Shown here one piece after another: positions 9,524-34,170 of a stretch of DNA of 64,000 nt. The DNA lies in assembly GCF_003721565.1 (NCBI RefSeq), contig NZ_RJJE01000002.1:434001-498000 (forward strand), read 5' to 3'. The notes under the pieces are model-generated. The model ran no database searches. It worked only from the letters and a program-made list of their open reading frames with translations, and was not told where the DNA came from. How positions within the stretch are numbered: position 1 is the first letter of the stretch; each line of letters begins with the position of its first letter. The position numbers were made by a program, and so were the translations under genes. The stretch is from Rufibacter immobilis. GTDB lineage: Bacteria > Bacteroidota > Bacteroidia > Cytophagales > Hymenobacteraceae.

Positions 9524-11506
9524 ATGTTGAAAATATACAGATCAGTTTTACTTTCTCTTCTTGCTGGCGGGTTGGCTTTCACGGGCTGCCAGACCACGCA
9601 CAAAGCAGATCGGCTTTACGAGAATTATGATTACGCACTGGCCATTGAGGAATACCAGGAGGTGTTCGCAAAGAAGGAACCTGGCTTGGAAGGGGCTCAA
9701 CGGTTGGCAGATGCCTACCGCCTGACGGGACGTACCGCGGAGGCGGAGCAATGGTACGCCAAAGTGGTGGCCATGCCCGAGGCCGATCCCATCAACACGT
9801 ACTATTATGCGGAGGCGCTCCGGAGCAACGGCAAGTATTTTGAGGCCAAAACTCAGTACCAGAACTATGCCATGAAGGTTCCCGCCGAGGCCGCCAAAGC
9901 CAATGCCAAAGCCCAGGCTTCTGACGCCGCCCTCAAACTGTTGGAAGAGCCGCCTACGGCTATTGTGGTCAATGAGGTACAGATCAACTCAGGTAACGCA
10001 GACTTTAGCCCTACCGTGTATGACAACGGCATCCTGTTTACCTCAGACCGGGGCGGCAGTACGAACGGAAAAGATTCTGAGGCAGGCACCTACGGTTGGA
10101 CCGGCCGGCCATACCTGCAGATCTTCTATGCCCAGCGCAACCAGGACAGTACCTGGCAAATGCCTACCCTGGCCAGCGCTACCCTCAACTCCGCGTACCA
10201 TGACGGACCGGCGGTGCTGGATTCAGCCAACACCACGTTGTTTTTCACCCGCACCAAAATGGTGAAGAAAAAGCAGGAGAACGTGAACACAGACCCTACC
10301 AGCTGGGTGCAGAAACCGCTTTCCAACAACTACGTCAACCGACTGGAAATTTTCACCGCCCGCCGCGAGGGTTCTACCTGGGCAGACGTGAAGCCTTTCG
10401 CTCATAATAAAGTGGAGGAATACAGCGTGGGGCATCCGGCGCTGTCACCAGACGGACAGGTGTTGTATTTTGTGTCTGATAAACCCGGCGGCCTGGGCGA
10501 GACGGATATCTATTATTCAGAACTTCAGCCAGACGGTTCCTGGGGGCAACCCGTTAATGCGGGAAGCACCATCAATACCGCGGGAAAAGAGATGTTCCCG
10601 GCGTTTGACCAGGCCGGTAACCTTTACTTCTCCTCAGACACCCATCCGGGGTTTGGTGGTTTAGATGTGTTCAAGGCCAAAGGAAACCGAGCCAATTGGA
10701 GCAGACCCGAAAACCTTCGGGCACCCGTGAACTCACCCAAAGACGATTTCGGGATGGTGTTCATGCGGGGAGCAGCCAACGCGCAGGTGGGGTACCTGTC
10801 TTCTAACCGCGACAGCAACAACGGCACAGATGACATCTACTCCTTCAAACTGTTGAGCAACGCCATCCTGCACGTGACCACGTTGGAGCGGGTGCAGGTA
10901 AAGGGTAAACGCAGCATTAACCAACCGTTAGCCGATGTCCGGCTGAAGCTCACGCCTCAGAACACCCAGGATTCTACCGTCGCTTTCTCTGACCGCAACG
11001 GCGAATACAAATTTGGGGTGATGAAAGGCAACAGCTATGACCTGATTGGGGAGAAGTTCGGGTACCTGACTCAGTCTGCCCTGGTGGCCATAGACACCGT
11101 GAAACTAGCCGACACTACCCGTGTAACGCTCATCTTTGACAAGAGCCAGAAAGAGCAGAGCATAGCGCTGGAGAACATCTACTATGACCTTGACAAATGG
11201 AACATCAGGCCAGATGCCGCTACTGAGTTAGACAAGCTGGTGAGAACCCTCAAAGACAACCCCAGCATCAAGATTGAGCTGAGCGCCCACACAGACAGCC
11301 GCGAAGGCCACGGCTACAATCAGGTACTTTCTGAGCGCAGAGCCCAGTCTGCGGTAGAGTATTTGGTAAGCAAAGGAATTGCGCGTAACCGACTCACCTG
11401 GCGCGGCTACGGGGAGACCATGCTGAAGAACCGCTGCGCCGATGGCGTAGAATGCACCGAAGACGAACACCAATTAAATAGAAGAACAGAATTCAAGATT
11501 AAATAA
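9524..11506 (+). CDS. OmpA-family lipoprotein with TPR and PD40 repeats (PorE-like)
   Basis: 660 residues. Lipobox LAFTGC at about residues 17-22; TPR-like helices to about 130; PD40 beta-propeller blades (TVYDNGILFTSDRGG, GHPALSPDGQVLYFVSD, AFDQAGNLYFSSD) to about 440; a carboxypeptidase-regulatory-like segment (LADVRLKLTPQ, FSDRNGEYKFGV); and a C-terminal OmpA peptidoglycan-binding domain (ENIYYDLDKWNIRPDA, LSAHTDSREGHGYN, LSERRAQSAVEYL). This is the layout of PorE-like proteins that fix T9SS parts to the cell wall. It follows the PorP/SprF gene by 18 bases and ends at a terminator. Confidence 0.92.
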   Translation: MLKIYRSVLLSLLAGGLAFTGCQTTHKADRLYENYDYALAIEEYQEVFAKKEPGLEGAQRLADAYRLTGRTAEAEQWYAKVVAMPEADPINTYYYAEALRSNGKYFEAKTQYQNYAMKVPAEAAKANAKAQASDAALKLLEEPPTAIVVNEVQINSGNADFSPTVYDNGILFTSDRGGSTNGKDSEAGTYGWTGRPYLQIFYAQRNQDSTWQMPTLASATLNSAYHDGPAVLDSANTTLFFTRTKMVKKKQENVNTDPTSWVQKPLSNNYVNRLEIFTARREGSTWADVKPFAHNKVEEYSVGHPALSPDGQVLYFVSDKPGGLGETDIYYSELQPDGSWGQPVNAGSTINTAGKEMFPAFDQAGNLYFSSDTHPGFGGLDVFKAKGNRANWSRPENLRAPVNSPKDDFGMVFMRGAANAQVGYLSSNRDSNNGTDDIYSFKLLSNAILHVTTLERVQVKGKRSINQPLADVRLKLTPQNTQDSTVAFSDRNGEYKFGVMKGNSYDLIGEKFGYLTQSALVAIDTVKLADTTRVTLIFDKSQKEQSIALENIYYDLDKWNIRPDAATELDKLVRTLKDNPSIKIELSAHTDSREGHGYNQVLSERRAQSAVEYLVSKGIARNRLTWRGYGETMLKNRCADGVECTEDEHQLNRRTEFKIK

Positions 11507-11522
11507 ATTTCCATGAAGGGGG

Positions 11523-11554
11523 AGAGAGCCACTGCTGAAGTGGCTCTCTTTGTT
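11523..11554 (+). terminator. Terminator of the T9SS adhesin operon
   Basis: 11-bp stem AGAGAGCCACT / AGTGGCTCTCT with a 5-base loop followed by TTTGTTTTA, 16 bases after the OmpA-family stop codon. Confidence 0.88.
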
Positions 11555-11588
11555 TTAGGGCAGTTTTAGGAAAAAGAGCCCCTAAACG
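11552..11588. repeat. GTTTAGGGGC palindrome, copy 3 (decayed left arm)
   Basis: Right arm AGAGCCCCTAAACGC is intact; the left arm GTTTTAGGGCAGTTTT has lost part of the G-run. It abuts the operon terminator. Confidence 0.75.
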
Positions 11589-11719
11589 CACTGCATGTGT
11601 CCAAAGTCAAACACCTGATTAAAAGCGAAAGAAGCTCAACATATCTGTTTCCTCTGCTTTAGCTGTCACCTATAGCCAACAACAGAAAAGAGCTTAATCA
11701 AACAATGACTCTTAATTGA

Positions 11720-11767
11720 AAATGCGTTTAGCGGCTCTTTTTCCAAAAACGGCCGCTAAACGCATTT
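11720..11767. repeat. GTTTAGCGGC palindrome, copy 4
   Basis: AAATGCGTTTAGCGGC...GCCGCTAAACGCATTT. Both arms carry the same change from GGGG/CCCC to GCGG/CCGC, so the stem is kept. Outer flank AAATGC/GCATTT also pairs. The 130 bases between this copy and copy 3 hold no gene I can see. Confidence 0.9.
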
Positions 11768-11835
11768 CTTATAAAAGAGTAAGTTTGGGAGCAAGCTCTC
11801 ACCGTAAGCTAACCATGAGATGATAGCCATAAAAA

Positions 11836-11863
11836 AAGCCTTTTGCGTAAGCAAAAGGCTTTA
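11836..11863 (-). terminator. Terminator of DUF4136 lipoprotein gene
   Basis: AAAGCCTTTTGC / GCAAAAGGCTTT stem with loop GTAA; on the minus strand it is followed by a T-run (plus-strand A7 before 11836). It lies 22 bases beyond the minus-strand stop. Confidence 0.85.
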
Positions 11864-11884
11864 GATGATTAGGGTTTCCTGAGA

Positions 11885-12508
11885 TTACCGGCGGGCAGTA
11901 GCTCTTTCCTCCGCCTGAGGCGGGAATTTAGCTAGTATGCTGGAAACAATGGCCTGTACTTTTTCATCGGTCAGGGAGCGTTCAGTGGCGGCGGTGGCAT
12001 TGGTTCCGCGCCAGATCAACTCATTAGACTTCGCATCTACCACATCCAGAAGAAGAGTGCCTTCCTGGTAATCTTGCACCGTGCTGGCGTTGTAGAGGCG
12101 GTTGTACGTGTAGGCATAGCGGTAGCCGTACCAATAACCATACCCAATAGACGGTATGCTCATAAAATTGGGGTGCAGGCGCTGCTGGTTATCTATGGTG
12201 AAATCATAGGCCAGTAACATGTCTGGTTTCTCAGACGCGGCGGCTTTGGTGAAGCCCCGGCGCTGCATCTCGGCTTCCACCGCGTTCTTCACCCGTTTGT
12301 CTAAAAAGGTGGTGTATCTGCGGTTGGTAGAGTCTTTGGCTATCGGCTGGTCCTGGTACCAGCGCCAGGTTTTGTAAGCCTGAAAATTAGTGGATTTGTC
12401 AAAGTCTGTGACTACGTTGTAAGTGGTTGCGCAACCGGTAAAACCTATCACCAACAGCCCCATCATTACCCCCGTCACCAACTTCGCTATTCTGCTGAAG
12501 GATTTCAT
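11885..12508 (-). CDS. DUF4136 domain lipoprotein
   Basis: 207 residues with a lipobox (VIGFTGC, Cys about residue 26) and the DUF4136 pattern: TYNVVTDFDKSTNFQAYKTWRW near the start, a central AVEAEMQRRGFTK segment, and the closing GTLLLDVVDAKSNELIWRGT. These lipoproteins are common in Bacteroidota; their role is not established. Single gene with its own terminator, convergent with the T9SS operon. Confidence 0.88.
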   Translation of the reverse strand: MKSFSRIAKLVTGVMMGLLVIGFTGCATTYNVVTDFDKSTNFQAYKTWRWYQDQPIAKDSTNRRYTTFLDKRVKNAVEAEMQRRGFTKAAASEKPDMLLAYDFTIDNQQRLHPNFMSIPSIGYGYWYGYRYAYTYNRLYNASTVQDYQEGTLLLDVVDAKSNELIWRGTNATAATERSLTDEKVQAIVSSILAKFPPQAEERATARR

Positions 12509-12703
12509 GGATTTTTACAGTTTTAGTAAATAAATATTCATCAAAGAACAATCGCCCGTGTTAAGGCTTACAGCTTCTATACGAAAGAAATGAGAGGCAG
12601 GCTTGATACGCAGGAGATGTTCTTTGGGAAGTTATTGTGCAAAAACTATGCCCATTTGATAGGTGAAGCACCCCTTCTGGAAGAATATGTTCAGAAAAGT
12701 GAA

Positions 12704-12742
12704 GTGCGTTTAGCGGCTGTTTTTTCAAAATAGGAGCTAAAA
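12704..12742. repeat. GTTTAGCGGC palindrome, copy 5 (decayed)
   Basis: GCGTTTAGCGGCTG-T6 then CAAAATAGGAGCTAAAAC: left arm is intact, right arm has drifted. Directly beside the gcvP terminator. Confidence 0.72.
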
Positions 12743-12743
12743 C

Positions 12744-12778
12744 AAAAACCGCCTGCGGAAGCTCCACAGGCGGTTTTT
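12744..12778 (-). terminator. Terminator of gcvP
   Basis: AAAAACCGCCTG / CAGGCGGTTTTT stem, 22 bases beyond the minus-strand gcvP stop. T-runs on both strands. Confidence 0.88.
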
Positions 12779-12800
12779 GATAGCAAAGCAAGGTTTGGCC

Positions 12801-15716
12801 TTAAACGGCTTTCATCTCCTCGCCCTGTTCATTATAGGCTTCAATAGGGGCGCAGCTGCACACCAGATTGCGGTCACCGTAGGCACTGTCAATACGGCTA
12901 ACGGTTGGCCAGAATTTGGCAGTGCGGGTGTTGGCGGTTGGGTACACGGCTCTCTCGCGGGTGTACGGGAAAGTCCAGTTTTCCATCAGAGCCACATGGG
13001 CTGGGTGCGGGGCGTTCTTGAGTAGGTTGTTTTTCTGATCTGCCTTGCCTTCCTCAACCTCCCGGATTTCCTCCCGAATAGAGATCATGGCATTACAGAA
13101 GCGGTCCAGCTCTTCTTTGCTCTCGCTCTCAGTGGGCTCTACCATCAAGGTACCTGCTACCGGGAAAGACACAGTTGGCGCGTGGAAACCGTAATCCATC
13201 AAACGCTTGGCAATGTCTTCTACCTCTACACCTGCTTTCTTGAAGGAACGGCAATCCAGGATCATCTCATGGGCGCAGCGTCCTTTAGAGCCTACGTACA
13301 GCACAGGGTAATGCTCTTCCAGGCGGGCTTTGATGTAGTTGGCGTTCAGGATGGCCATTTTAGTGGCTTCGGTCAAACCTTCGCCGCCCATCATGGCAAT
13401 GTACGCATAGGAGATAGGCAGAATGCTGGCGCTGCCCCAAGGAGCCGCAGATACCGCGTTAATGGCTTCTGGGCGCTCCAGGTCTACTACCGCGTGACCG
13501 GGGAGGTAAGGCGCCAGATCAGCTACTACGCCAATAGGCCCAACGCCTGGTCCACCACCACCGTGCGGAATACAGAAGGTTTTGTGCAGGTTCAAGTGGC
13601 ACACATCGGCGCCAATATTGGCCGGCGAGGTCAAGCCTACCTGAGCGTTCATGTTGGCACCGTCCATGTACACACGGCCGCCGTTTTCATGGATGATCTG
13701 GCAGATCTCAATAATGCTTTCTTCATACACGCCGTGGGTAGACGGGTACGTCACCATTAAGCAGGATAGTTCGTTTTTGTACTGTTCAGCTTTAGCGCGA
13801 AGATCAGCTACGTCAATATTGCCGCGCTCATCGCATTTCACAATCACTACCTTCATGCCAGCCATTACCGCAGAGGCAGGGTTGGTGCCGTGCGCCGAGG
13901 ACGGAATCAAAGAGATGTTACGGTGATGGTCGCCGCGGGCTTCATGGTAGGCTCTGATCACCATTAAACCGGCGTACTCACCTTGCGCTCCAGAGTTAGG
14001 CTGCAAAGAAACAGCGGCAAAACCAGTCACTTCACATAACCAGGCCTCCAGATCATTGAAGATTTGGGCATAGCCTTTGGCTTGGTCTGCCGGCGCGAAT
14101 GGGTGGAGTGAACCAATCTCTGGCCAGGTCACCGGAATCATCTCGGCGGTGGCGTTCAGTTTCATGGTGCAGGAACCCAACGGAATCATGCCATGCGTCA
14201 ATGAAAAGTCCTTGTTCTCCAGGTACTTCATGTAACGAAGGATTTCGCTTTCTGAGTGGTACTTGTTAAAGACTTCGTGTTGCAGGTACGGTGAGGTGCG
14301 GATCAATGCTTCTGGCCACGTGATCTCCGTCTCGGCCGGAATCTCTTCCAGGTCCAGCGTGGCTTCCGCTTTGCCGGCTACTTTGGCAAAAACTGCTAAA
14401 ATGGCTTTCACATCGTCCAGGTCAGTGTTCTGGTTCAGGGAAATGCCAATGTTGTTGTCCCCGAAGTAGCGGAAGTTGATCTGCGCCGCCTCAGCCTCCT
14501 GACGGATGGCTTGCTGCAGTTCAGCACTCTCTACCCGCAGTTGCAGGGTGTCAAAATAGTTTTCGTTCAGTTGCTCAAAACCTAAGCGCTCCAGACCTTT
14601 GGCCAGAATCTGCGTGAGGCTATGGATGTTGAGGCCAATGTATTTCAGGCGGCGTGGTCCGTGGTAAACGGCGTACATACCGGCCATAACCGCTAACAAT
14701 ACCTGTGCAGTACAGATATTGGACGTAGCTTTCTCGCGGCGGATGTGCTGCTCACGTGTTTGCAGAGCCATGCGGTAAGCTTTCTGCCCAAACGCATCCT
14801 GCGAAAGACCAATGATACGGCCCGGAATAGAACGCTTGTACTCATCTTTGGTGGCGAAGTAACCGGCGTGCGGTCCGCCATAACCCATGGGTACGCCAAA
14901 ACGCTGCGAAGAACCTACCACTACGTCGGCACCCATTTCACCAGGTGATTTCAATAAGGTTAAGCTCAGCAAATCAGCGGCCACGGCTACCGGAATATCT
15001 TGCCCATGTGCCTGGGAGATGAAGTCAGTGTAGTCAAACACTTCTCCGTCGGCGGCAGGGTATTGTACCAGGGCACCAAACAGGGTGTCATCCTGCAGAT
15101 TGGCCTCGCGGTGATCGCCAATAACTAATTCAATGCCCAGTGGCGTGGCACGGGAAAGTAACACATCAATGGTTTGCGGCAATACCTGCTCAGATACAAA
15201 GTAGCGGCTGGCATTTTTACGGGCTCCTTTGCGCAGGGAGTACTGGAGGTTCATGGCCTCGGCGGCGGCGGTGGCCTCGTCCAGCAAAGAGGCATTGGCG
15301 ATGGCCATGCCAGTGAGATCAATGATGAGGGTCTGGTAGTTGATGAGGGCTTCCAGACGTCCTTGGGCAATCTCAGCCTGGTAAGGGGTATAGGCCGTGT
15401 ACCAACCTGGGTTCTCCAGAATATTGCGCTGGATCACCGGCGGCAGAATGGTGTCATGGTATCCTAAACCAATGTAAGATTTGTATAATTTGTTCTGCTT
15501 GGCAATCTGGGAGAACTTCCGCAGGAAATCGCGCTCAGTAAGCGAGGCAGGCAAATTCAAAGGCTTCTTTAAGCGAATGGCTGGGGGAACAGTCTCGTCT
15601 ATGAGTTGATCTAGCGAGGCGGCTCCAATTGTCTGCAGCATTTCCTGCATCTGTTCTTTTACGGGGCCGTTGTGGCGCTCCTTGAAGATATCGGCAGGCT
15701 TGGTTTTAAAGATCAT
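12801..15716 (-). CDS. gcvP: Glycine dehydrogenase (decarboxylating), P-protein
   Basis: 971-residue homodimeric-type P-protein of the glycine cleavage system; it decarboxylates glycine with PLP and transfers the aminomethyl group to lipoylated GcvH. The PLP lysine is K712 in [31 protein letters not shown] (N-terminal half) and [14 protein letters not shown] (C-terminal half) are conserved family blocks. Length matches the single-chain bacterial/eukaryotic form. gcvT and gcvH are not nearby. A TACTTTTG box on the minus strand upstream (15785-15792) may be its promoter. Confidence 0.98.
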
Positions 15717-26412: not shown

Positions 26413-29400
26413 TTAGAACTGGAACCCGGCTCTAATCAAGAGCAGGCTTTCTTCCTGTGAGGCCGCGTAGCCCACAGAGATCACCACCTGGTTCAGCGGC
26501 GACAGCCATACCCCGCCACCGTAGCCGGTGTGCCATTTGTTGGAGTCTTCATTGTCCATCCAGACACGGCCTACGTCATGGAACCCGAACACGCCCAATG
26601 AGGCTGGGAACAGGTACGTAGTGAAGCTGAACAGACGCAAGCGGGCCTCGGTGTTGTTGTAGAGGCTGGTCTGCCCACTGAACCGGTTGCGGCGGTAACC
26701 GCGCAGGGTGGTGGGGCCGTCCAGTGTCTGGGCCTGGAAGAACTCAAAACCGTCGCCAAAGGTGTGGCCGCCGCCAAAGCGGGTAGCCAGGGTCAGTTTC
26801 AGCGGTATCCGGAGGGTTTTGTACACCGCGAACTGCGTATGCACCCGGGCCACGTCTGAGGATTGCTGGTTTGTTCCTTTCAACAAGTCTGCGGCAACTT
26901 GCCAATAAACCCCTTTGGCCGGTAAGGCCGGTAAATCTCTGGAGTCTAACACATACTCAATGCGGGCACCGGCATAGGAAGTGGGCTCAAAATAATCTGC
27001 GGCCCGTTCTGTGTTGGCCAGCTGGCGTTCCAGAAACCTTTCGGGCGTGCGTTCTACGTTCACCGTCTGGAAGACCGGACCCACAAAGAGCGTTTCATAG
27101 TCGCTGAGCTTGCGGCCCACCAGCAGGTTGGCGTAAAGCTGCGATGACCGGTACCGGTAATTTTCTATGTCAATGTCTGGGTTGTAGGCTGTCTCATTGC
27201 CCAGCCCGAAGAAGTTCTGCTCAAAGCCGGGGCTCTTGAAATTCACGTTCAGTTTCAGGTCCAGCCCCATTCTAAGCTGCGGGAAGTGCGCCGCGTAGTC
27301 CACCAGAAAAGACTGAGTGTTGAAGGCGTAAGAACCCACCAGACGCTGCATCATGCCGTACGGCTCTTTCTGGAAGCCCTGCGTCTTGAGCAGTACTCCG
27401 GCACCCAGCAAGACACCGTCATCGCGGTTGAACTCAATAGAGGCCAGCGGCCCCAGGTAATTGTATCGGAAGCTTTGCCGGTTGTATTCCACTGGTCCGC
27501 GGCGCGAAAGATTTCGGGCTTCAGGGCCTAATTGGAATTGGGTGCCTTTGGGATCATCATAGACATACGTGAGGCGGCGGAGGCCAACCACGCTGGAACT
27601 GTCCGTGATTCTGTCTTCGCCCTGACCGCCAATGATGCGCAAGCGTATGCCGTCTGCGGCCTGGCCCTGTACGCTGAATTCATCGGCACCGCCCAAACCG
27701 TACAACCTAATCTCACGGGTCTCATTTGGGAGGAAACGGCGTCTGTACAGCTGGTTTTCTGGCGAGGCATCTGCGCCTTTTTTGTAAATGGTAACCAACG
27801 TAGCCCCACCGGGTTCACGCTGCACCTCAAACCGTTCTTCCTGGTCTGTACCAACCACGTCTACCTTCTGGGCCAGAAACTCATAGTATTCCTCGGCATC
27901 ACGTTTGATGTAGGCCCGGCGGGCTTTCAAGGTGTTGGCCAAACGCTCCCCGGAAATCTGGTAGATCTCCGGTGGCAATTGCCGAACGGCTTCTTCAATG
28001 GCTTCATCGGTTAGGCCGGCCCGCACAGAGTCTGCCATGGCAATCCAGTCTTCGCGCTCCAATTCCGTGAGGAAAGAGCGGTCAAAGTAGCGGTTGTTGA
28101 AGTTGAAGCCTTTGATGTCACGGAGGCTTTCATCAAAGCCCTGCACCTTGGGCAGAATCCAGCGGCGGCTGGCAATATTAGGAATCACCCCCTGGTTCAC
28201 GAAGAACGCCTGGTCACGGTCGCGGGGCACGGGTTTGTAGATTTTACCCTTGCCTTCTTTCTTGAACTCGGCCCAGCGCCATTGGTCATCGTGGCGGTCC
28301 CAGTCGGCAATGAAGAAGTCCAGGAGGCGGGCCCGCAGCACGCTCCGTTGGTCTACTTCATCGTTCTGGTCTTCCAGCGTGTTTTCCAGCACTTTGTCGG
28401 TGCCCACCAGGTTCTTGGAATTCCCGAAGCTGGCAATGTCTGACATGTCTTCATCGGGTCGTTCCTCAAACAAGCCAATGGTATTGGCGAAGCCTTTCAG
28501 ATATTTCCCAAACCTGGGGTCTTCCGGAATTACAAAGTACTTAGGGTTGGTATGGTATACGCCCACGGCATCGGCTAATCTGGGGACTACCAGGGAACCG
28601 TACGGGTGGGAGGCCGAGATCTGGTCTTTCACCACGTCGGCGGCCAGGGTATGGCGCAGGATGCGGGGGAGCGCCGCATCTGGGTACTTCTCCACAGACC
28701 GCAAGGCATACTGCCGGCCGGTGCTGTCTTCCAGGCGCAGAGAAACCGTCTGGAACCCGCCGCCACGCTGTACTACTTTAAGCCCGCCCTGCTGCGCGCC
28801 AATATCAAAGACCGGTAAAGAAACCGGGGTTTCCCACTCTGGGCGGTAGTTGCGGCCCAGCAGCCATTCCCTGAAGCCGCTGCCCTTGTATACCTGGCTG
28901 GCGGGCAACGCCGATTTTTGGCCTGCAAACGAAAGGTTCATCTTTTTGATGCTGGCCTCCATCTGCTTGGTGGTGGGCTTGCGCGAAAGTAGCGCTCTGT
29001 GGGCTACTTGTCCCTGGCGGCTCTGCGCGTCTGGCGCCGTCCAGATTTCTAGCCAGGTTTCGCCGTTGGCGAAGTACAGTAGCTTGGCAAACCCGGCGGT
29101 GGCTTGGGAAAACACAGGAGCGGCGCCCTTGGAGTTTTTTAATTTGTTTAAACCAAAACCGGTGCTCACGTAGTGGATGCTGTCCTGCGTACGGTGCGAG
29201 AGGGCGGCAGAGTTTCCTTCGGCGTGCACCAGGCCTTTGTGCTGGGCATACATCTGGGAAAGCTGACGCACCATGATCCGATGTTCCAGACTGCTCATTT
29301 CCGGCGACACGCTCATGGCCACCAGCAGGTTTTTGTCTTCGTTGCTGCGCAGCACATCATCTAAGGCCGCCAGCGTAGCGGTTCCGCCGGTGGTAGGGCA

Positions 29401-29973
29401 GCCGCGCTGTTCCTCTTCCTCGTCCATGCGGCGGTTAGGCATGAGCCACTGGGTGTCCATGATGAGCAGGTGCACATCGTCGGTGAGGGCTATCTCAGAG
29501 GGGCCGGGGCAGTGGTTTTCCGGCAGGAACAGTTTCTCGTTCTGCAGGTACTGGGCTATGTAGCGCTCCTGGTTTCTAACTTCCTGCACCAGACTTCCTT
29601 TGGCGTCATGCTCGCCGGGCAAAATAATGATCTTGCCGCTGTAGCCCTGCAAATGACCCAGTTGTCGCTGTAGTTGGCTTTCCAGCTCTTTGCGGTTGGC
29701 GGCAGAAACGCCGGGCAGCCTGGCCGGCTGGAACGGATTGCCCATAAACACCACCGCGCTCTTGTCTCCGGCAGCTCTCAGTTGTTCCTGCAGCAGAGGT
29801 AAAGGTGCGGCCGTGCTTTCTCCCGGCGACCACCTGCCCGCCAGTACTACGGTATAGGAAGGCGCACCAGACGGTAGGGAAGGCAGTTGTGCCCAGGCTG
29901 GGACCGCGCAGCATGCCCAGACGCAGACTTGCAATAGGATTACCCTTAAGGGTAAAGTTTTTTTCATGTTCAT
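26413..29973 (-). CDS. Degenerate phosphoesterase + kinase-like domain + Omp85 (BamA/TamA-like) barrel
   Basis: 1186 residues (a second ATG at 29967 is equally possible). Signal peptide to about 29 (CAVPAWAQ). Residues 30-310 follow a calcineurin-like phosphoesterase layout, but the metal motifs are changed: GNP at 78-80 where GDN is usual, GEHD at 120-123 for GNHD, and no His in the later VSP and EGNSAALS positions. Residues about 395-770 are a conserved middle domain with RGGGFQT (GGG 404-406), YALRSVEK (K429), DWDRHDDQW (557-565) and RDRDQAFF (D585, D587), kinase-like in layout. From about 790 to the end is an Omp85 barrel with the LRGYRRNRF motif and a terminal Phe. Outer membrane. A stand-alone paralogue of the middle domain is at 32554. 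Confidence 0.85.
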   Translation of the reverse strand: MNMKKTLPLRVILLQVCVWACCAVPAWAQLPSLPSGAPSYTVVLAGRWSPGESTAAPLPLLQEQLRAAGDKSAVVFMGNPFQPARLPGVSAANRKELESQLQRQLGHLQGYSGKIIILPGEHDAKGSLVQEVRNQERYIAQYLQNEKLFLPENHCPGPSEIALTDDVHLLIMDTQWLMPNRRMDEEEEQRGCPTTGGTATLAALDDVLRSNEDKNLLVAMSVSPEMSSLEHRIMVRQLSQMYAQHKGLVHAEGNSAALSHRTQDSIHYVSTGFGLNKLKNSKGAAPVFSQATAGFAKLLYFANGETWLEIWTAPDAQSRQGQVAHRALLSRKPTTKQMEASIKKMNLSFAGQKSALPASQVYKGSGFREWLLGRNYRPEWETPVSLPVFDIGAQQGGLKVVQRGGGFQTVSLRLEDSTGRQYALRSVEKYPDAALPRILRHTLAADVVKDQISASHPYGSLVVPRLADAVGVYHTNPKYFVIPEDPRFGKYLKGFANTIGLFEERPDEDMSDIASFGNSKNLVGTDKVLENTLEDQNDEVDQRSVLRARLLDFFIADWDRHDDQWRWAEFKKEGKGKIYKPVPRDRDQAFFVNQGVIPNIASRRWILPKVQGFDESLRDIKGFNFNNRYFDRSFLTELEREDWIAMADSVRAGLTDEAIEEAVRQLPPEIYQISGERLANTLKARRAYIKRDAEEYYEFLAQKVDVVGTDQEERFEVQREPGGATLVTIYKKGADASPENQLYRRRFLPNETREIRLYGLGGADEFSVQGQAADGIRLRIIGGQGEDRITDSSSVVGLRRLTYVYDDPKGTQFQLGPEARNLSRRGPVEYNRQSFRYNYLGPLASIEFNRDDGVLLGAGVLLKTQGFQKEPYGMMQRLVGSYAFNTQSFLVDYAAHFPQLRMGLDLKLNVNFKSPGFEQNFFGLGNETAYNPDIDIENYRYRSSQLYANLLVGRKLSDYETLFVGPVFQTVNVERTPERFLERQLANTERAADYFEPTSYAGARIEYVLDSRDLPALPAKGVYWQVAADLLKGTNQQSSDVARVHTQFAVYKTLRIPLKLTLATRFGGGHTFGDGFEFFQAQTLDGPTTLRGYRRNRFSGQTSLYNNTEARLRLFSFTTYLFPASLGVFGFHDVGRVWMDNEDSNKWHTGYGGGVWLSPLNQVVISVGYAASQEESLLLIRAGFQF

Positions 29974-30000
29974 TTTTAATAAGGTACTGGCAGCCTCTGC

Positions 30001-30040
30001 CTGTTTAGGGGCTCTTTTTTGAGAAACAGGCCCAAAACAG
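30001..30040. repeat. GTTTAGGGGC palindrome, copy 11
   Basis: CTGTTTAGGGGCTC-T6 GAGAAACAGGCCCAAAACAG; right arm has two changes. Upstream of the Omp85-fusion gene, between it and the divergent 30235 gene; nothing else is seen in 30041-30234. Confidence 0.85.
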
Positions 30041-30234
30041 AATGAGGTTAACGTGGAAAAGCTGACCTTGTAAGGTTCGTTTGCGGCTGTTTACGCAGTT
30101 TGGGTAGCATAAGGTTAATTGTATCTTCGGGTTTTCTGCGCGGCGGCTGCGCTTGTTGGGGCACCGGAGAAAAATAGGCCTGAAATGGAATAGATAGTAC
30201 CTGCCTTTTGTTCTGCCAACAGAGAACCTTTCTT

Positions 30235-30792
30235 ATGCCCGCACTAGAAAAAGAACTACGGAAAGCAATCCTGAGCCTTCCTGCCGCCCGAAAAGATAAA
30301 TTGCTGCTCCAGTTGCTCACGCCCAACCAACTCCTGCAGGAGCAGCTGGCCTTTGAGTTATTGGAAGGCCCCGAGGGGTTAGAAACTCGGCGCGAGGCGC
30401 TGCAACACCAGATCACTACGGTGGCCCAGGGCTTTTATTATAATGCTTCAGAGCTGCTCATAGGGCTGCGGCAAGTATGCCCGGTCATCAGCAACCACGT
30501 TAAAGTAACCCATGATGCTTATGGCGAAGTGTCACTGCTGCTGCTGCTCCTGAACCAGGTATTGTCTCACCAGAAAGAGCTACTGCATACCCTAACCGGC
30601 GCCAATGAAGCGCTGGGACTTTTCCTGGCCAAACGCACCGAAGAAGCGCTCCAGAAACTGGATAGGTTACATGAAGACCTGCACGTGGAGTTTGCTCAAC
30701 AAATGAGCAATTTGCTGCCCAAACTCCACGCTTCCGCCGCCGGCTATTCTGCCAGAAAACTCGGCTTGCCGCTGAATTGGCAAGAGGAGTAA
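30235..30792 (+). CDS. Unknown all-helical protein
   Basis: 185 residues from ATG 30235 (MPALEKELRKAILSLPAARK); an in-frame start 27 bases upstream is less likely. Leucine- and glutamine-rich amphipathic helices throughout (LLLQLLTPNQLLQEQLAFELL, VSLLLLLLNQVLSHQKELLHTL, EEALQKLDRLHEDLHVEF). No signal peptide, no motif recognised. Orphan gene between the Omp85-fusion and vsr. Confidence 0.68.
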   Translation: MPALEKELRKAILSLPAARKDKLLLQLLTPNQLLQEQLAFELLEGPEGLETRREALQHQITTVAQGFYYNASELLIGLRQVCPVISNHVKVTHDAYGEVSLLLLLLNQVLSHQKELLHTLTGANEALGLFLAKRTEEALQKLDRLHEDLHVEFAQQMSNLLPKLHASAAGYSARKLGLPLNWQEE

Positions 30793-30901
30793 GGGAATAA
30801 CCGAAATGCCCGGTAAGTCTGGGAAGAGATAGATGTATACGAAGTGAAGGTGGTTCTTAACAAAAGAAGCCAAAGATGGGAACACCAGTGTTTCTTGCCT
30901 T

Positions 30902-30943
30902 GGCGTTTAGGGGCCCTTTTTAGAAAAACAGCCCCTAAACGCT
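30902..30943. repeat. GTTTAGGGGC palindrome, copy 12
   Basis: GGCGTTTAGGGGCCC-T5 ag A5-CAGCCCCTAAACGCT, between the convergent 30235 gene and vsr; one C:C mismatch. No separate terminator is seen here. Confidence 0.93.
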
Positions 30944-30978
30944 AATGCATTCTTAATCCGAAGGATGAAAACCAGGAA

Positions 30979-31458
30979 TTACGCCGCCTCCAGCCAATAG
31001 CTTTCCGGTACCCCCGCATGCAGCGCCTTGATGGTGAAGAGGCAGCCTTCCAGATCTTGCTGCAACTGGCACGCCCAGATGACCAGTACCTGCCAACCGG
31101 CGGCTTTCAGCTTCTCGCGGTTTTGTCTGTCCCGTTCCTGGTTGCGGGTAAATTTCTCAGCCCAGAAGGGCAGGTTGGTTTTAGGCATGGCCGGCAGGCA
31201 GTGAGGGCAGCGGTGCCAGAAACAGCCGTGCAGGAAAATGGCCAGTTTACGGCCGGGGTAGCAGACATCGGGCTTGCCCGGGAGGTTCTTCCAATGGATC
31301 CGGTAGCCGCGCAGCCCGTTCTGCCAGAGGGCCCGACGCAGCCTAAGCTCAGGTTGGGTGTTCTTGCTTTTGTTGCCACGCATATAGCGGCTAACGCGCT
31401 CCTGGGCCGTGAGCGGCGTGTTCCCCAAAACAGAATACCTTTTCTTCTTCTTTGCCAT
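30979..31458 (-). CDS. vsr: Very short patch repair endonuclease (Vsr), orphan
   Basis: 159 residues from the ATG at 31458 (MAKKKKRYSV). Vsr nicks next to T:G mismatches that arise from deamination of 5-methylcytosine. Diagnostic blocks: SRYMRGNKSKNTQPELRLRR, NLPGKPDVCYP with the catalytic Asp at residue 64, LAIFLHGCFWHRCPHC (conserved His 78 and Trp, plus zinc Cys), and GWQVLVIWACQL. Vsr genes usually sit beside a cytosine-5 methyltransferase and restriction enzyme; none is found within this window, so the partner methylase must be elsewhere or lost. Confidence 0.93.
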   Translation of the reverse strand: MAKKKKRYSVLGNTPLTAQERVSRYMRGNKSKNTQPELRLRRALWQNGLRGYRIHWKNLPGKPDVCYPGRKLAIFLHGCFWHRCPHCLPAMPKTNLPFWAEKFTRNQERDRQNREKLKAAGWQVLVIWACQLQQDLEGCLFTIKALHAGVPESYWLEAA

Positions 31459-31572
31459 AGGGAAGCTGTGCAAAGAAAACACAAATCTGCCGGGGAGAGT
31501 GCCTTGGCGGGTAGTTTTCTATAGGAAGGAATGTAAGGAGAATATGAAGTTACTTTTTGCGTCAGCGCGAAC

Positions 31573-31610
31573 GCGTTTAGGGGCCGTTTTTCTGAAAATA
31601 GCCCCAAAGT
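31573..31610. repeat. GTTTAGGGGC palindrome, copy 13 (right arm decayed)
   Basis: GCGTTTAGGGGCCG-T5 then GAAAATAGCCCCAAAGT. Upstream of vsr. Confidence 0.75.
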
Positions 31611-31632
31611 AGATGAGCCTAATAGGGTAAAA

Positions 31633-31672
31633 GCAAACGGCCCCGCCTATCTGCACAGGCGGGGCCGTTTGC
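31633..31672 (-). terminator. Terminator of 31692 gene
   Basis: 16-bp stem GCAAACGGCCCCGCCT / AGGCGGGGCCGTTTGC, 20 bases beyond the minus-strand stop. Confidence 0.82.
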
Positions 31673-31691
31673 CCTAGAGGGTGATAAAGGA

Positions 31692-31961
31692 CTATTCCTT
31701 CACTTCCTGAGCCTCTGAGAACTGGTGGTTGCTGCCGTAAGACACCAGCACAATAGCGCCAATGGCAACGGCCGCCACAGACAGCACCAACTGTACCGGG
31801 GTCATTTTCTCGCGCACTTTCAGGAGCATTCTGCCTGCGTCTGAGAGTAAATCTGGCAGCACGTCATGGTTGCCTTGGTATACATGTACAATGGACTCAA
31901 CGGTTCTGGCGAAGTCTTTTGGCTGTACAAGCTGAGTAGAGGTATTGGGTGTCTGTTCCAT
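31692..31961 (-). CDS. Small membrane protein, one C-terminal helix
   Basis: 89 residues. Polar N-terminal half (FARTVESIVHVYQGNHDVLPDLLSDAGRMLLKVREKM) then one transmembrane helix (PVQLVLSVAAVAIGAIVLVSYG) and a short acidic tail. No signal peptide. Family not recognised. Follows the 32088 gene on the same strand but a terminator lies between them. Confidence 0.65.
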   Translation of the reverse strand: MEQTPNTSTQLVQPKDFARTVESIVHVYQGNHDVLPDLLSDAGRMLLKVREKMTPVQLVLSVAAVAIGAIVLVSYGSNHQFSEAQEVKE

Positions 31962-32003
31962 AGTGGTTGTGTCTCTTGAGAGGTTGAAGTCTTACAAATA
32001 AAA

Positions 32004-32043
32004 AAATCCCGGCCTGGCCAGCTAAGGCACAAGACCGGGATTT
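32004..32043 (-). terminator. Terminator of 32088 gene
   Basis: AAATCCCGG / CCGGGATTT stem with A-run on the plus-strand side (T-run on minus), 45 bases beyond the minus-strand stop. Confidence 0.78.
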
Positions 32044-32087
32044 CTATACGCAAACACAGCCGCTTAGGTCGTGCTTTTTAAGACAAG

Positions 32088-32360
32088 TTATGCCACCTGC
32101 CCGCCGGCGCCGCGCACCGCTTCGTTTATTTTCTGGATAATCTTATCTGGGCTGAACATCATACTAGCCGGAAAGCTTACCTGTACGTTATTGATTTGCA
32201 GGGTCTGCGAAGCTTCTTCGTAGGCATAATCAGCCGTAACGCCTTGTTTGGAAACGCGTCCGCTGTTGCCAGCCAGCTCAATACCGGCTGCGCCTAATTT
32301 ATCGCGCAATTGGTTGTACAGATCTGGAGTAATGCCGGTGTAGGTAGCACTGTTTGCCAT
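32088..32360 (-). CDS. Small unknown protein
   Basis: 90 residues from ATG 32360 (MANSATYTGITPDLYNQLRDKLGAAG). The frame stays open further upstream to 32483 but that part has unrelated composition. Pattern is a small alpha/beta fold (ITPDLYNQLRDKL, LQINNVQVSFPASMMFSPDKIIQKINEAVRGAGG). No family recognised; about the right size for a DNA- or ligand-binding domain, but without evidence. Confidence 0.65.
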   Translation of the reverse strand: MANSATYTGITPDLYNQLRDKLGAAGIELAGNSGRVSKQGVTADYAYEEASQTLQINNVQVSFPASMMFSPDKIIQKINEAVRGAGGQVA

Positions 32361-32553
32361 AAGTGTAGAATTAAGGTTGGGTAGTTGGTTTATAACGCAG
32401 GGACCAACCGCAAGGTTAGCCACGGTGCGCCTTGGCTTAAAGGTATAGGTTTTCTGCCGGTTTTCCTTGCAAACCACTACCACCGCCGCCCGGTTCTGCC
32501 AGAACCTTTGCCCCTGTTTTGAGGTAAAGCTGTACTCTAGTTAACACGCTTCC

Positions 32554-34170
32554 ATGAAAAAAAGGATTTTACGGACACTGGTAGGGGTGTTGATCCTGTA
32601 CGGATTGGTGACTTTCTTTTTTGCTGATCAGGCTACTGAACAAACAGATGCCCCCGCCGTCTTCTTTGGGGAAAACAACGCCACGCAGATACTGCAAGAC
32701 AGCGTGCTGGTTAGCGCTGGTGCGCATTACCAATTAAGTAAAGTAGGCATGTTCTTTCTGGGGAAGCATTACCGCCCGGTGTGGGCCGTACCGGTGAAAG
32801 CCAAAGTTTTCCACATGGATGAAGCCGAGGGAGGACTGGCCATTGAGAAACTGGGCGGCGGTATGCAAACCACCAGCCTCACCCTTACAGATTCCTCGGG
32901 CCGGCGTTTCGCCCTGCGCTCTTTAGACAAAGATCCGGTGAGTGTGTTGTCTCCTTTCTGGCGCAAAACCTTGGTTGGGTCCTTTGTGCGGGACCAGGTT
33001 TCGGCCACCAACCCATACGCAGCTTTGGTGGTAGCGCCGCTGGCCCAGGCCGTGGGCGTGTTCCACCCATCGCCCAGGCTGGTGTACGTGCGGCCCTCAG
33101 ACAAGAGTTTTAAGCAGTACGCCTACCTCTTCGGGAGCAAGTTGTTTCTGATGGAAGAGAAATTCACCTCCAAAGCCTCCCTGACCAAAGAATTCGGCGC
33201 AGCCACAGATTTAGTCAGCTCAGAGGAAATGTTGGCGCGCCGTTTCCGGTCCAGCCAGCACCGCATAGACCAGTGGGCCTTTGCCCGCGCCCGCCTCCTG
33301 GACATGCTCCTGAGCGATTGGGACCGGCATGAGGGCCAATGGGACTGGGCGGTGTACGTGCAAGGAAAAGAAACCTGGTACAAACCGGTGCCCAAAGACC
33401 GTGACCAGGCCCTCTGCCTCTATGACGATGGCGTGATTCCCTGGCTGGCTACCCGTAAATTTGCCGCCCGTAAGTTTGAGTCTTTTCATGCGTCTTTCCA
33501 TGATGTGTATGGGCTAACCATTAATGCCGCCTTTCTGGATGCCCGTGCCCTGTCTGAGGTTACCTTAACAGATTTCAAGAGAATTGCCCGGGAGATGCAA
33601 ACAGCCCTGTCTGATTCTGTCTTGAGCGCGGCTGTGAAACAACTGCCATCCCCGGTGTACCAGCTGGTGGGCGAAGAGACATTTGCCAAACTGAAAAGCA
33701 GGAGAAAACTACTGGTGCAGGTAGCCGAAGAATATTACTCCATACTGGCAAAGGAAGTAATGGTACCCGGTTCAGATGCCGCAGACCGCTTTGTGGTGCA
33801 GCGTCTCTCGCAGGGCAGAACTGTGGTAGAAGTGTTCAGAATGGGCGAGGGGAATGTGAACAAGTCAAAAGTCTACAGCCGAACCTTCTTTGCAAGCGAA
33901 ACCGAGAAGATCCATCTATACGGGCTAGGCGGGAACGACATCTTTGATGTGAAAGGCACCGCCGCCAAAGGCAGTTATGTGCACCTCTATGGAGGCGAAG
34001 GCACCGATGAAGTAACTGATGTTTCCAGCTTAGAGGGTTGGCGAAAAAAGTCGGTGGTGTTAGATGACGCTGCCGGAGTAAAGGTGAAAACAGGACCTAT
34101 CACGGAGGTGAAACTTTCAGACTCACGGAAAGATGTGCCCTCATTTGTGCGGGTAAGGGTGCGGGAGTAA
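32554..34170 (+). CDS. Stand-alone paralogue of the kinase-like middle domain
   Basis: 538 residues. An N-terminal hydrophobic segment (TLVGVLILYGLVTFFFA) acts as signal or anchor, so the rest is periplasmic. Residues about 95-520 align with residues 395-780 of the Omp85-fusion protein: GGGMQTTSLTL (GGG 101-103), FALRSLDK, QVSATNPYAALVVAPLA, LLDMLLSDWDRHEGQWDW (DWDRH 255-259), YKPVPKDRDQAL (D282, D284), VKQLPSPVYQL, EKIHLYGLGGNDIFDV. It lacks both the phosphoesterase-like N-terminus and the barrel. The kept motifs argue for a shared catalytic or binding role. I do not know a characterised relative. Confidence 0.82.
   Translation: MKKRILRTLVGVLILYGLVTFFFADQATEQTDAPAVFFGENNATQILQDSVLVSAGAHYQLSKVGMFFLGKHYRPVWAVPVKAKVFHMDEAEGGLAIEKLGGGMQTTSLTLTDSSGRRFALRSLDKDPVSVLSPFWRKTLVGSFVRDQVSATNPYAALVVAPLAQAVGVFHPSPRLVYVRPSDKSFKQYAYLFGSKLFLMEEKFTSKASLTKEFGAATDLVSSEEMLARRFRSSQHRIDQWAFARARLLDMLLSDWDRHEGQWDWAVYVQGKETWYKPVPKDRDQALCLYDDGVIPWLATRKFAARKFESFHASFHDVYGLTINAAFLDARALSEVTLTDFKRIAREMQTALSDSVLSAAVKQLPSPVYQLVGEETFAKLKSRRKLLVQVAEEYYSILAKEVMVPGSDAADRFVVQRLSQGRTVVEVFRMGEGNVNKSKVYSRTFFASETEKIHLYGLGGNDIFDVKGTAAKGSYVHLYGGEGTDEVTDVSSLEGWRKKSVVLDDAAGVKVKTGPITEVKLSDSRKDVPSFVRVRVRE

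Follow-up and report, generated by a model that had tools for sequence, protein, structure and literature searches.

A predicted kinase-like domain in apparently exported proteins of Bacteroidota, alone or joined to a phosphatase-like domain and an Omp85 barrel

The window analysed here, a stretch of 64,000 nucleotides from Rufibacter immobilis (contig NZ_RJJE01000002.1, positions 434,001 to 498,000), encodes two proteins of 1186 and 538 residues (P1186 and P538) that share a domain which, judged from its predicted model, almost certainly has a kinase-like fold. P538 carries this domain without a barrel; in P1186 it stands between a decayed phosphatase-like domain and an Omp85 barrel. We consider it fairly probable that the two belong to a family of envelope-targeted proteins of the protein kinase-like (PKL) fold in Bacteroidota, with a phosphotransfer-type working.

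The shared domain and its predicted fold

Residues 362-817 of P1186 match residues 59-515 of P538 by BLASTP (186 of 458 positions identical, 41%; 356 bits, E = 5e-115), a block that takes in the motif region and the beta-rich segment behind it. Because of this match we treat the shared motifs as homologous and reject chance motif matching. A sequence-only reading of the window had proposed the two open reading frames (ORFs) with a common domain, and both the ORF coordinates (Table 1) and the BLASTP block bear this out; the ordered motifs that it named, RGGGFQT/GGGMQT, ALRSVEK/ALRSLDK, DWDRH and, about 25 residues later, RDRDQA/KDRDQA, were found in place. No Pfam or NCBIfam model exceeds its own cut-off within the shared block. 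Matches to the pfkB and 1-PFK NCBIfam models at residues 633-743 (E = 0.073, 12 bits, with cut-offs of 292 and 216) lie behind the kinase motifs and were rejected.

The AlphaFold2 model of P538, computed from an 81-row alignment (predicted local distance difference test, pLDDT, 92.6; predicted template modelling score, pTM, 0.92), has the two lobes of a kinase fold. Strands at residues 81-85, 96-101, 108-112 and 118-123, with the GGGxQT loop between strands two and three, are followed by a helix (140-149, holding the invariant D147) and strands 175-179 and 196-203 (with E201 inside), and then, in the C-lobe, by a helix (240-252), the loop D255-W-D257-R-H-x-x-Q262, strands 263-270 and 273-280, and D282-R-D284, an order of elements that we take to be that of the kinase fold. 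Kinases or kinase-like proteins make up all 20 Foldseek matches to the PDB at E ≤ 0.001 and all of the best 50 of 473 matches at E ≤ 10, among which we presume MSMEG_1954, Rv3197, YihE, the 'MDT protein', mTORC1 chain B and pre-40S chains z to be kinase-like. These matches support the kinase-fold idea of the sequence-only reading, and of the kinases that it named for comparison, HipA (4pu4, E = 2.6e-5) and PI4KIIalpha (4hne, E = 3.1e-5) stand near the top with CtkA (3akk, E = 1.8e-6) and HipT (8ezr, E = 2.2e-4), and CotH (5jd9, E = 1.4e-3) is found at rank 23; FAM20, also named, occurs nowhere among the 50 matches listed.

Profile comparison by hhalign gives a similar result. With a core profile of 145 rows we obtained P = 0.00086 for HipA_C and P = 0.0033 for CotH, and with a longer domain profile P = 0.0046 and P = 0.0087, the minimum for the 24 controls (11 unrelated profiles, the reversals of those 11, reversed CotH and reversed HipA) being 0.072 with the core profile and at least 0.072 with the longer one. 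The CotH and HipA_C profiles were built in this analysis from 20 and 12 rows. The loop DWDRHxxQ falls in register with the loops of HipA and CotH, so that D257 is aligned with residues that we assume to be their catalytic Asp, and the segment LAxAAGV ahead of the loop also aligns with HipA. The PI3/PI4-kinase Pfam family has no member in 31 genomes of the phylum and was therefore unusable as a comparison profile. The Pfam models of CotH (PF08757) and HipA (PF07804) show no match up to E = 1, the former to P1186 or P538, and the relation to HipA is a distant one between profiles alone.

The Asp residues expected of a kinase-like active site are conserved. Of 148 ORFs found, three were dropped as identical or contained, leaving 145 aligned domains, 144 of which reach the motifs (one is cut by its contig). 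In P538 numbering, R122, which lies in strand 3, and K126, four residues on, are present in 145/145 domains, and D255, R258, D282, R283 and D284 in 144/144; position 262 is Gln in 139 and Asn in 5, and position 257 is Asp in 119 and Ser in 25, the exceptions forming one paralogue clade. The counterparts of D257 and D282 are intact in both window proteins. K429, D559, D585 and D587 of P1186, which the sequence-only reading had singled out, are all invariant in a full-length alignment of 29 sequences. Of the two findings that would have refuted its kinase idea, an unrelated fold and a lack of conservation, neither was obtained.

HipA, HipT and CtkA are intracellular or toxin kinases, and they share with this family the register of the D-x-H loop with its +5 residue. 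The family differs from them in its apparent export, its strand-3 Arg, the Gln at +5, an extra beta-rich domain and, in the long forms, the barrel; in the HipA_C alignment the metal Asp follows after 23 residues, here after 25. In CotH, GNWD...PYDYD aligns with SDWD...PKDRD (Asp-Asp spacing of 26 in CotH and 25 here), although the profile alignment begins only at the catalytic loop and leaves the N-lobe uncovered. The genome of the window also encodes a CotH match of its own (PF08757, E = 3.0e-47, G000:C16:114612-115610).

Ser257 copies, phosphatase-like domain and barrel

The 25 Ser257 copies are all of solo length and form a single clade in the FastTree phylogeny (support 98), requiring one change. 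For 24 of them an intact copy lies in the same locus, and the 25th (L005) adjoins L002 (locus L149). The contig pattern used in this search, WDRHx[DG]QW, demands Asp257 and biases the pairing seen there, and we therefore made a second search with a Ser copy as query. Over 291 genomes of the order, the best-scoring 30 places (in 30 genomes) held Ser copies without exception, each with an intact copy beside it, in a divergent arrangement in 29 cases and a tandem one in the other; the two sets may have genomes in common. In the window genome the pair at L149 is head-to-head, at 9560-11194 (-) and 11255-12871 (+), with DWDRHEGQW in one gene and DWSRREDQW in the other. By sequence, the Ser257 clade has lost the presumed catalytic Asp, and its members are likely pseudokinases. 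The neighbouring Asp and Ser genes suggest an envelope kinase with a helper pseudokinase, and by analogy we give an even chance to a model in which the intact copy is the kinase and the Ser copy its pseudokinase partner.

FAM20 kinases carry a DRH motif, and the secretory-pathway kinase FAM20C is likewise paired with a pseudokinase paralogue, FAM20A, a likeness by analogy rather than by any sequence relation seen here. FAM20A is described in the text of PMC7948968 as a pseudokinase activator of FAM20C with Gln in place of the Mn-binding Glu; the substitution here differs, being of the presumed catalytic Asp by Ser.

The canonical long form consists of a purple-acid-phosphatase-like domain, the kinase-like domain and the Omp85 barrel. 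PF00149 exceeds its cut-off in the three canonical long members scanned (L008, L009 and L012), and a profile of 15 N-domains finds the tartrate-resistant purple acid phosphatase TRAP5 in the PDB (1ute, E = 4.7e-12), with the difference that here the domain shares its chain with the kinase-like domain and the barrel and has decayed in P1186. Scored with the motif set GDxG/GDxxY/GNHD/HHP/GHxH, which we assume for the purple acid phosphatases, 45 of 61 long proteins keep 8/8 metal ligands, 2 keep 7/8 and 14 keep 0-4/8. P1186 keeps 1/8 and its N-domain has no Pfam match, yet all of its kinase motifs are kept. The decay requires a minimum of 3 changes among the long rows, and the starred branches of the FastTree phylogeny alone force 2. 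Because the ligands have decayed in 14 of the 61 and Asp257 is kept in 61/61, the phosphatase is dispensable, and it is the kinase-like domain that stays constant.

Outside the Rufibacter/Adhaeribacter clade of P1186, decayed ligands (0-4/8) occur in L077, L079, L085, L099, L091, L094, L102, L107, L111 and L105. The titles of decayed-ligand long copies include Labilibaculum, Marinifilum, Ancylomarina, Draconibacterium, Mariniphaga and Agaribacillus.

The barrel that the sequence-only reading had assigned to P1186 is confirmed by PF01103 (58.4 bits, above the cut-off of 24; E = 1.1e-15) and by Foldseek, whose best match is BamA (E = 9.5e-12); NF047779 scores 110 bits, below its cut-off of 200, and the whole-protein AlphaFold2 model has pLDDT 84.0 and pTM 0.77. 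The Pfam scan of P1186 found no match to a POTRA model, the front of the protein being phosphatase-like and kinase-like; the Omp85 superfamily includes further members without POTRA, according to the text of PMC4104836. The same survey names a 'Metallo' Omp85 subfamily that has no POTRA but an N-terminal PF00149, which it calls a metalloprotease (Heinz & Lithgow 2014, PMC4104836), and in its main text the word 'kinase' occurs 0 times. Its members are probably those of this family, which would thus be partly known already, the kinase-like domain going unmentioned in that text; P1186 differs in having lost the PF00149 ligands. Pfam describes PF00149 as a calcineurin-like phosphoesterase, and we suggest that the published metalloprotease label be corrected. 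In our searches of the open-licence literature, with PMC12611786 and PMC12599244 among the texts consulted, we found no description of the domain, and the main text of KINtaro (PMC10870513) contains neither Omp85 nor Bacteroid-; the domain may already have been recognised in the KINtaro table or by Gradowski et al. 2020.

A possible mechanism and its alternatives

The family proteins are apparently exported. P1186 begins with a signal-peptide-like segment and P538 with a predicted helix (2-23). With a crude script that relies on Met starts, 2/61 long, 5/51 solo-Asp, 12/25 solo-Ser and 1/7 mid-length copies come out without a signal, and a start-free script (mean Kyte-Doolittle of at least 1.6 over 12 residues) finds a hydrophobic N-terminal peak in 61/61, 51/51, 25/25 and 6/7, respectively. 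In the long forms the kinase-like domain should face the periplasm, because it is located where Omp85 proteins usually carry POTRA. There it would bind a nucleotide in the cleft between Gly-loop and hinge, with Asp257 as catalytic base and Gln262 and Asp282 (with Asp284) as metal ligands, and would pass on a phosphate, or some other group derived from the nucleotide, to a protein, glycan or lipid of the envelope. An intact phosphatase domain would undo the transfer, while the barrel would fix the whole to the outer membrane. Within one branch of solo genes, the Ser257 copy may regulate its intact partner as a pseudokinase, in analogy with FAM20C and FAM20A. Catalytic competence is reasonably likely, and phosphorylation of proteins specifically is a less than even prospect. 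That Bacteroidota combine reversible phosphorylation at the outer membrane, by a kinase, an opposing purple-acid-type phosphatase and an Omp85 barrel in a single chain, with an obligate exported kinase-pseudokinase pair as a bacterial equivalent of FAM20C/FAM20A and a genetic link of the long form to cyclase/HD-PycTM nucleotide signalling is a tentative proposal, which we hold to be rather unlikely as a whole.

Several observations weigh against an envelope kinase. Kinases normally have Lys in strand 3, the place at which R122 stands here, and we know of no ATP pool in the periplasm. The Foldseek matches listed have modest template modelling scores (at most 0.52, target-normalised) and root-mean-square deviations of 6.9-18.6 A; searches of PDB sequences, whether started from either protein by itself or from the domain profile, found no relative of the domain (best profile E = 1.2); and the hhalign probabilities are low (23.5% and 9.7%), although the P values are small. 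Because these probabilities are low and the sequence signal alone is weak, the case for a kinase leans mainly on the fold. Nearly half of the Ser257 copies (12/25) lack a signal by the Met-start script, though all 25 show the hydrophobic peak of the start-free one. The Ser257 copies as a whole retain all other invariant motif residues, so that they may be altered but still working enzymes.

The most radical alternative, a fold unrelated to kinases with DRH and DRD arising by chance, would account for the lack of a sequence match to any known kinase family over its cut-off, and is nevertheless very improbable in view of the AlphaFold2 model, the Foldseek matches and the separation of hhalign scores from the controls. 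If the fold is accepted, it could still serve as a non-catalytic binding module for a nucleotide, phospho-ligand or glycan, as a substitute for POTRA or as an assembly scaffold. The strand-3 Arg in all 145 domains, the apparent scarcity of periplasmic ATP and the retention of 25 copies without Asp257 fit this explanation, but a pure scaffold need not keep metal and base positions, and D282 and D284 are kept throughout, Gln or Asn stands at 262 in all 144 domains and D257 is present in 119, which makes it improbable. The chemistry or acceptor could instead differ from protein phosphorylation, in the form of AMPylation, glutamylation, or glycan or lipid phosphorylation. Kinase-like proteins with AMPylation or glutamylation activity are known, and FAM20B acts as a xylose kinase, according to the text of PMC7948968 and PMC10870513. 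An envelope location and phosphate-related neighbours would suit glycan or lipid targets, but none of the 10 scanned neighbour families is an obvious acceptor pathway, and we regard this alternative as possible, if on the unlikely side. Finally, the Omp85 part may do the work, in assembly or translocation of outer-membrane proteins, with the front domains regulatory. The invariant positions of the 29-sequence alignment include barrel residues, R1091-G1092 for example, and the text of PMC4104836 proposes assembly roles for Omp85 subfamilies of unknown function and describes the PF00149 'Metallo' subfamily. However, 76 of the 144 scored domains lie on barrel-free ORFs of less than 700 residues (a few cut by the end of their own locus) and keep the kinase motifs, except for Asp257 in 25, and we consider a barrel-centred role distinctly improbable.

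The phosphotransfer reading would be of wider interest, as bacterial extracytoplasmic phosphorylation is, to our knowledge, scarcely explored, and the family offers concrete proteins and residues for probing phosphorylation in the diderm envelope and its donor.

Window features, distribution and neighbouring genes

Table 1. Features of P1186 and P538 in window coordinates
Feature	Position	Strand	Description
P1186 ORF, 1186 aa	26413..29973	-	signal-like N-terminus, decayed purple-acid-phosphatase-like domain, kinase-like domain, beta-rich linker, Omp85 barrel
Phosphatase-like domain, P1186 residues 36-331	28981..29868	-	1/8 metal-ligand positions; identity as purple acid phosphatase via intact relatives
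Kinase-like domain, P1186 residues 355-702	27868..28911	-	homology, alignment, predicted model
DWDRHDDQW, P1186 residues 557-565	28279..28305	-	segment of the catalytic loop, with D559 as presumed catalytic Asp and Q564 at +5
DRD, P1186 residues 585-587	28213..28221	-	presumed metal-binding (DFG-like) segment
Omp85 barrel, P1186 residues 839-1186	26416..27459	-	16 long strands counted on predicted model
P538 ORF, 538 aa	32554..34170	+	stand-alone kinase-like protein, probably membrane-anchored or exported
Kinase-like domain, P538 residues 78-399	32785..33750	+	N-lobe strands 81-123, C-lobe from 240
Gly-rich loop GGGMQTT, P538 residues 101-107	32854..32874	+	sequence, model, alignment
R122 (strand 3) to K126, P538	32917..32931	+	invariant at both positions
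Catalytic loop DWDRHEGQW, P538 residues 255-263	33316..33342	+	alignment and profile comparison
DRD, P538 residues 282-284	33397..33405	+	immediately behind strand 273-280
Beta-rich C-terminal part, P538 residues 401-522	33754..34119	+	mostly common to P1186 703-817

In a sample of 296 genomes (140 genera) from the phylum to which the window belongs, 112 genomes and 62 genera hold the domain at E ≤ 0.001. The window genome has five copies, namely P1186, P538, a canonical long copy (contig 1) and the head-to-head solo pair (contig 10). The contig loci are the best 80 of 586 relatives; one of the 80 (L108) is titled as a Chlorobiota metagenome-assembled genome. Three loci (L035, L071 and L072) hold a protein with 74-75% identity to P538 and, on the opposite strand, a relative of P1186 cut by the end of the locus, which was placed by the tree in L071 and L072 and by alignment to residues 1-470 of P1186 in L035.

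Neighbourhoods were compared in 79 of the 80 loci (one held an identical domain alone), sorted by their longest copy into 36 long, 38 solo and 5 mid, two of the mid loci being cut by contig ends. A gene with HD and PycTM domains, labelled from the Pfam matches of one representative (PF01966 and PF18967), single-linkage BLAST and PADLOC on the copy of the window genome, is found in 29/36 long loci versus 1/38 solo loci (L093); the seven long loci that lack it include several truncated at a contig end. Of the 36 long loci, 11 hold a class III cyclase (PF00211 in one representative; PADLOC PycC models), and with the duplicate L106 included, 11 of 12 cyclase loci also hold HD-PycTM. Other neighbours in the 36 long loci, each labelled from one scanned representative, are SdiA/phytase-like (13), DUF6268 (13), PPK (13), SixA (10) and His_Phos_1 (7). 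In L148 of the window genome, the canonical long copy stands beside HD-PycTM (11780-13024, +), DUF6268, PPK and SixA; within the window itself the models of these four have no match.

The PycTM and PycC models of PADLOC are matched by one representative each of HD-PycTM and of the cyclase. The HD-PycTM gene, a conserved neighbour of the canonical long gene, may serve in nucleotide signalling and not in defence. A defence role of the kinase-like domain itself is not supported, because PADLOC gave no match for P538 or for the Ser257 copy of the window genome. A scan of viral contigs for P538 relatives returned 7 pattern matches, none of them a relative. Searching plasmids with a 317-residue part of P538 gave 5 records, all with less than 60% identity and all predicted to be non-mobilizable, of which 4 are annotated as 'hypothetical protein' and 1 is without annotation. 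Between the two kinase-like genes of the window lies an ORF at 30979-31482 (-), which by eye is a candidate very-short-patch (Vsr-type) repair endonuclease.

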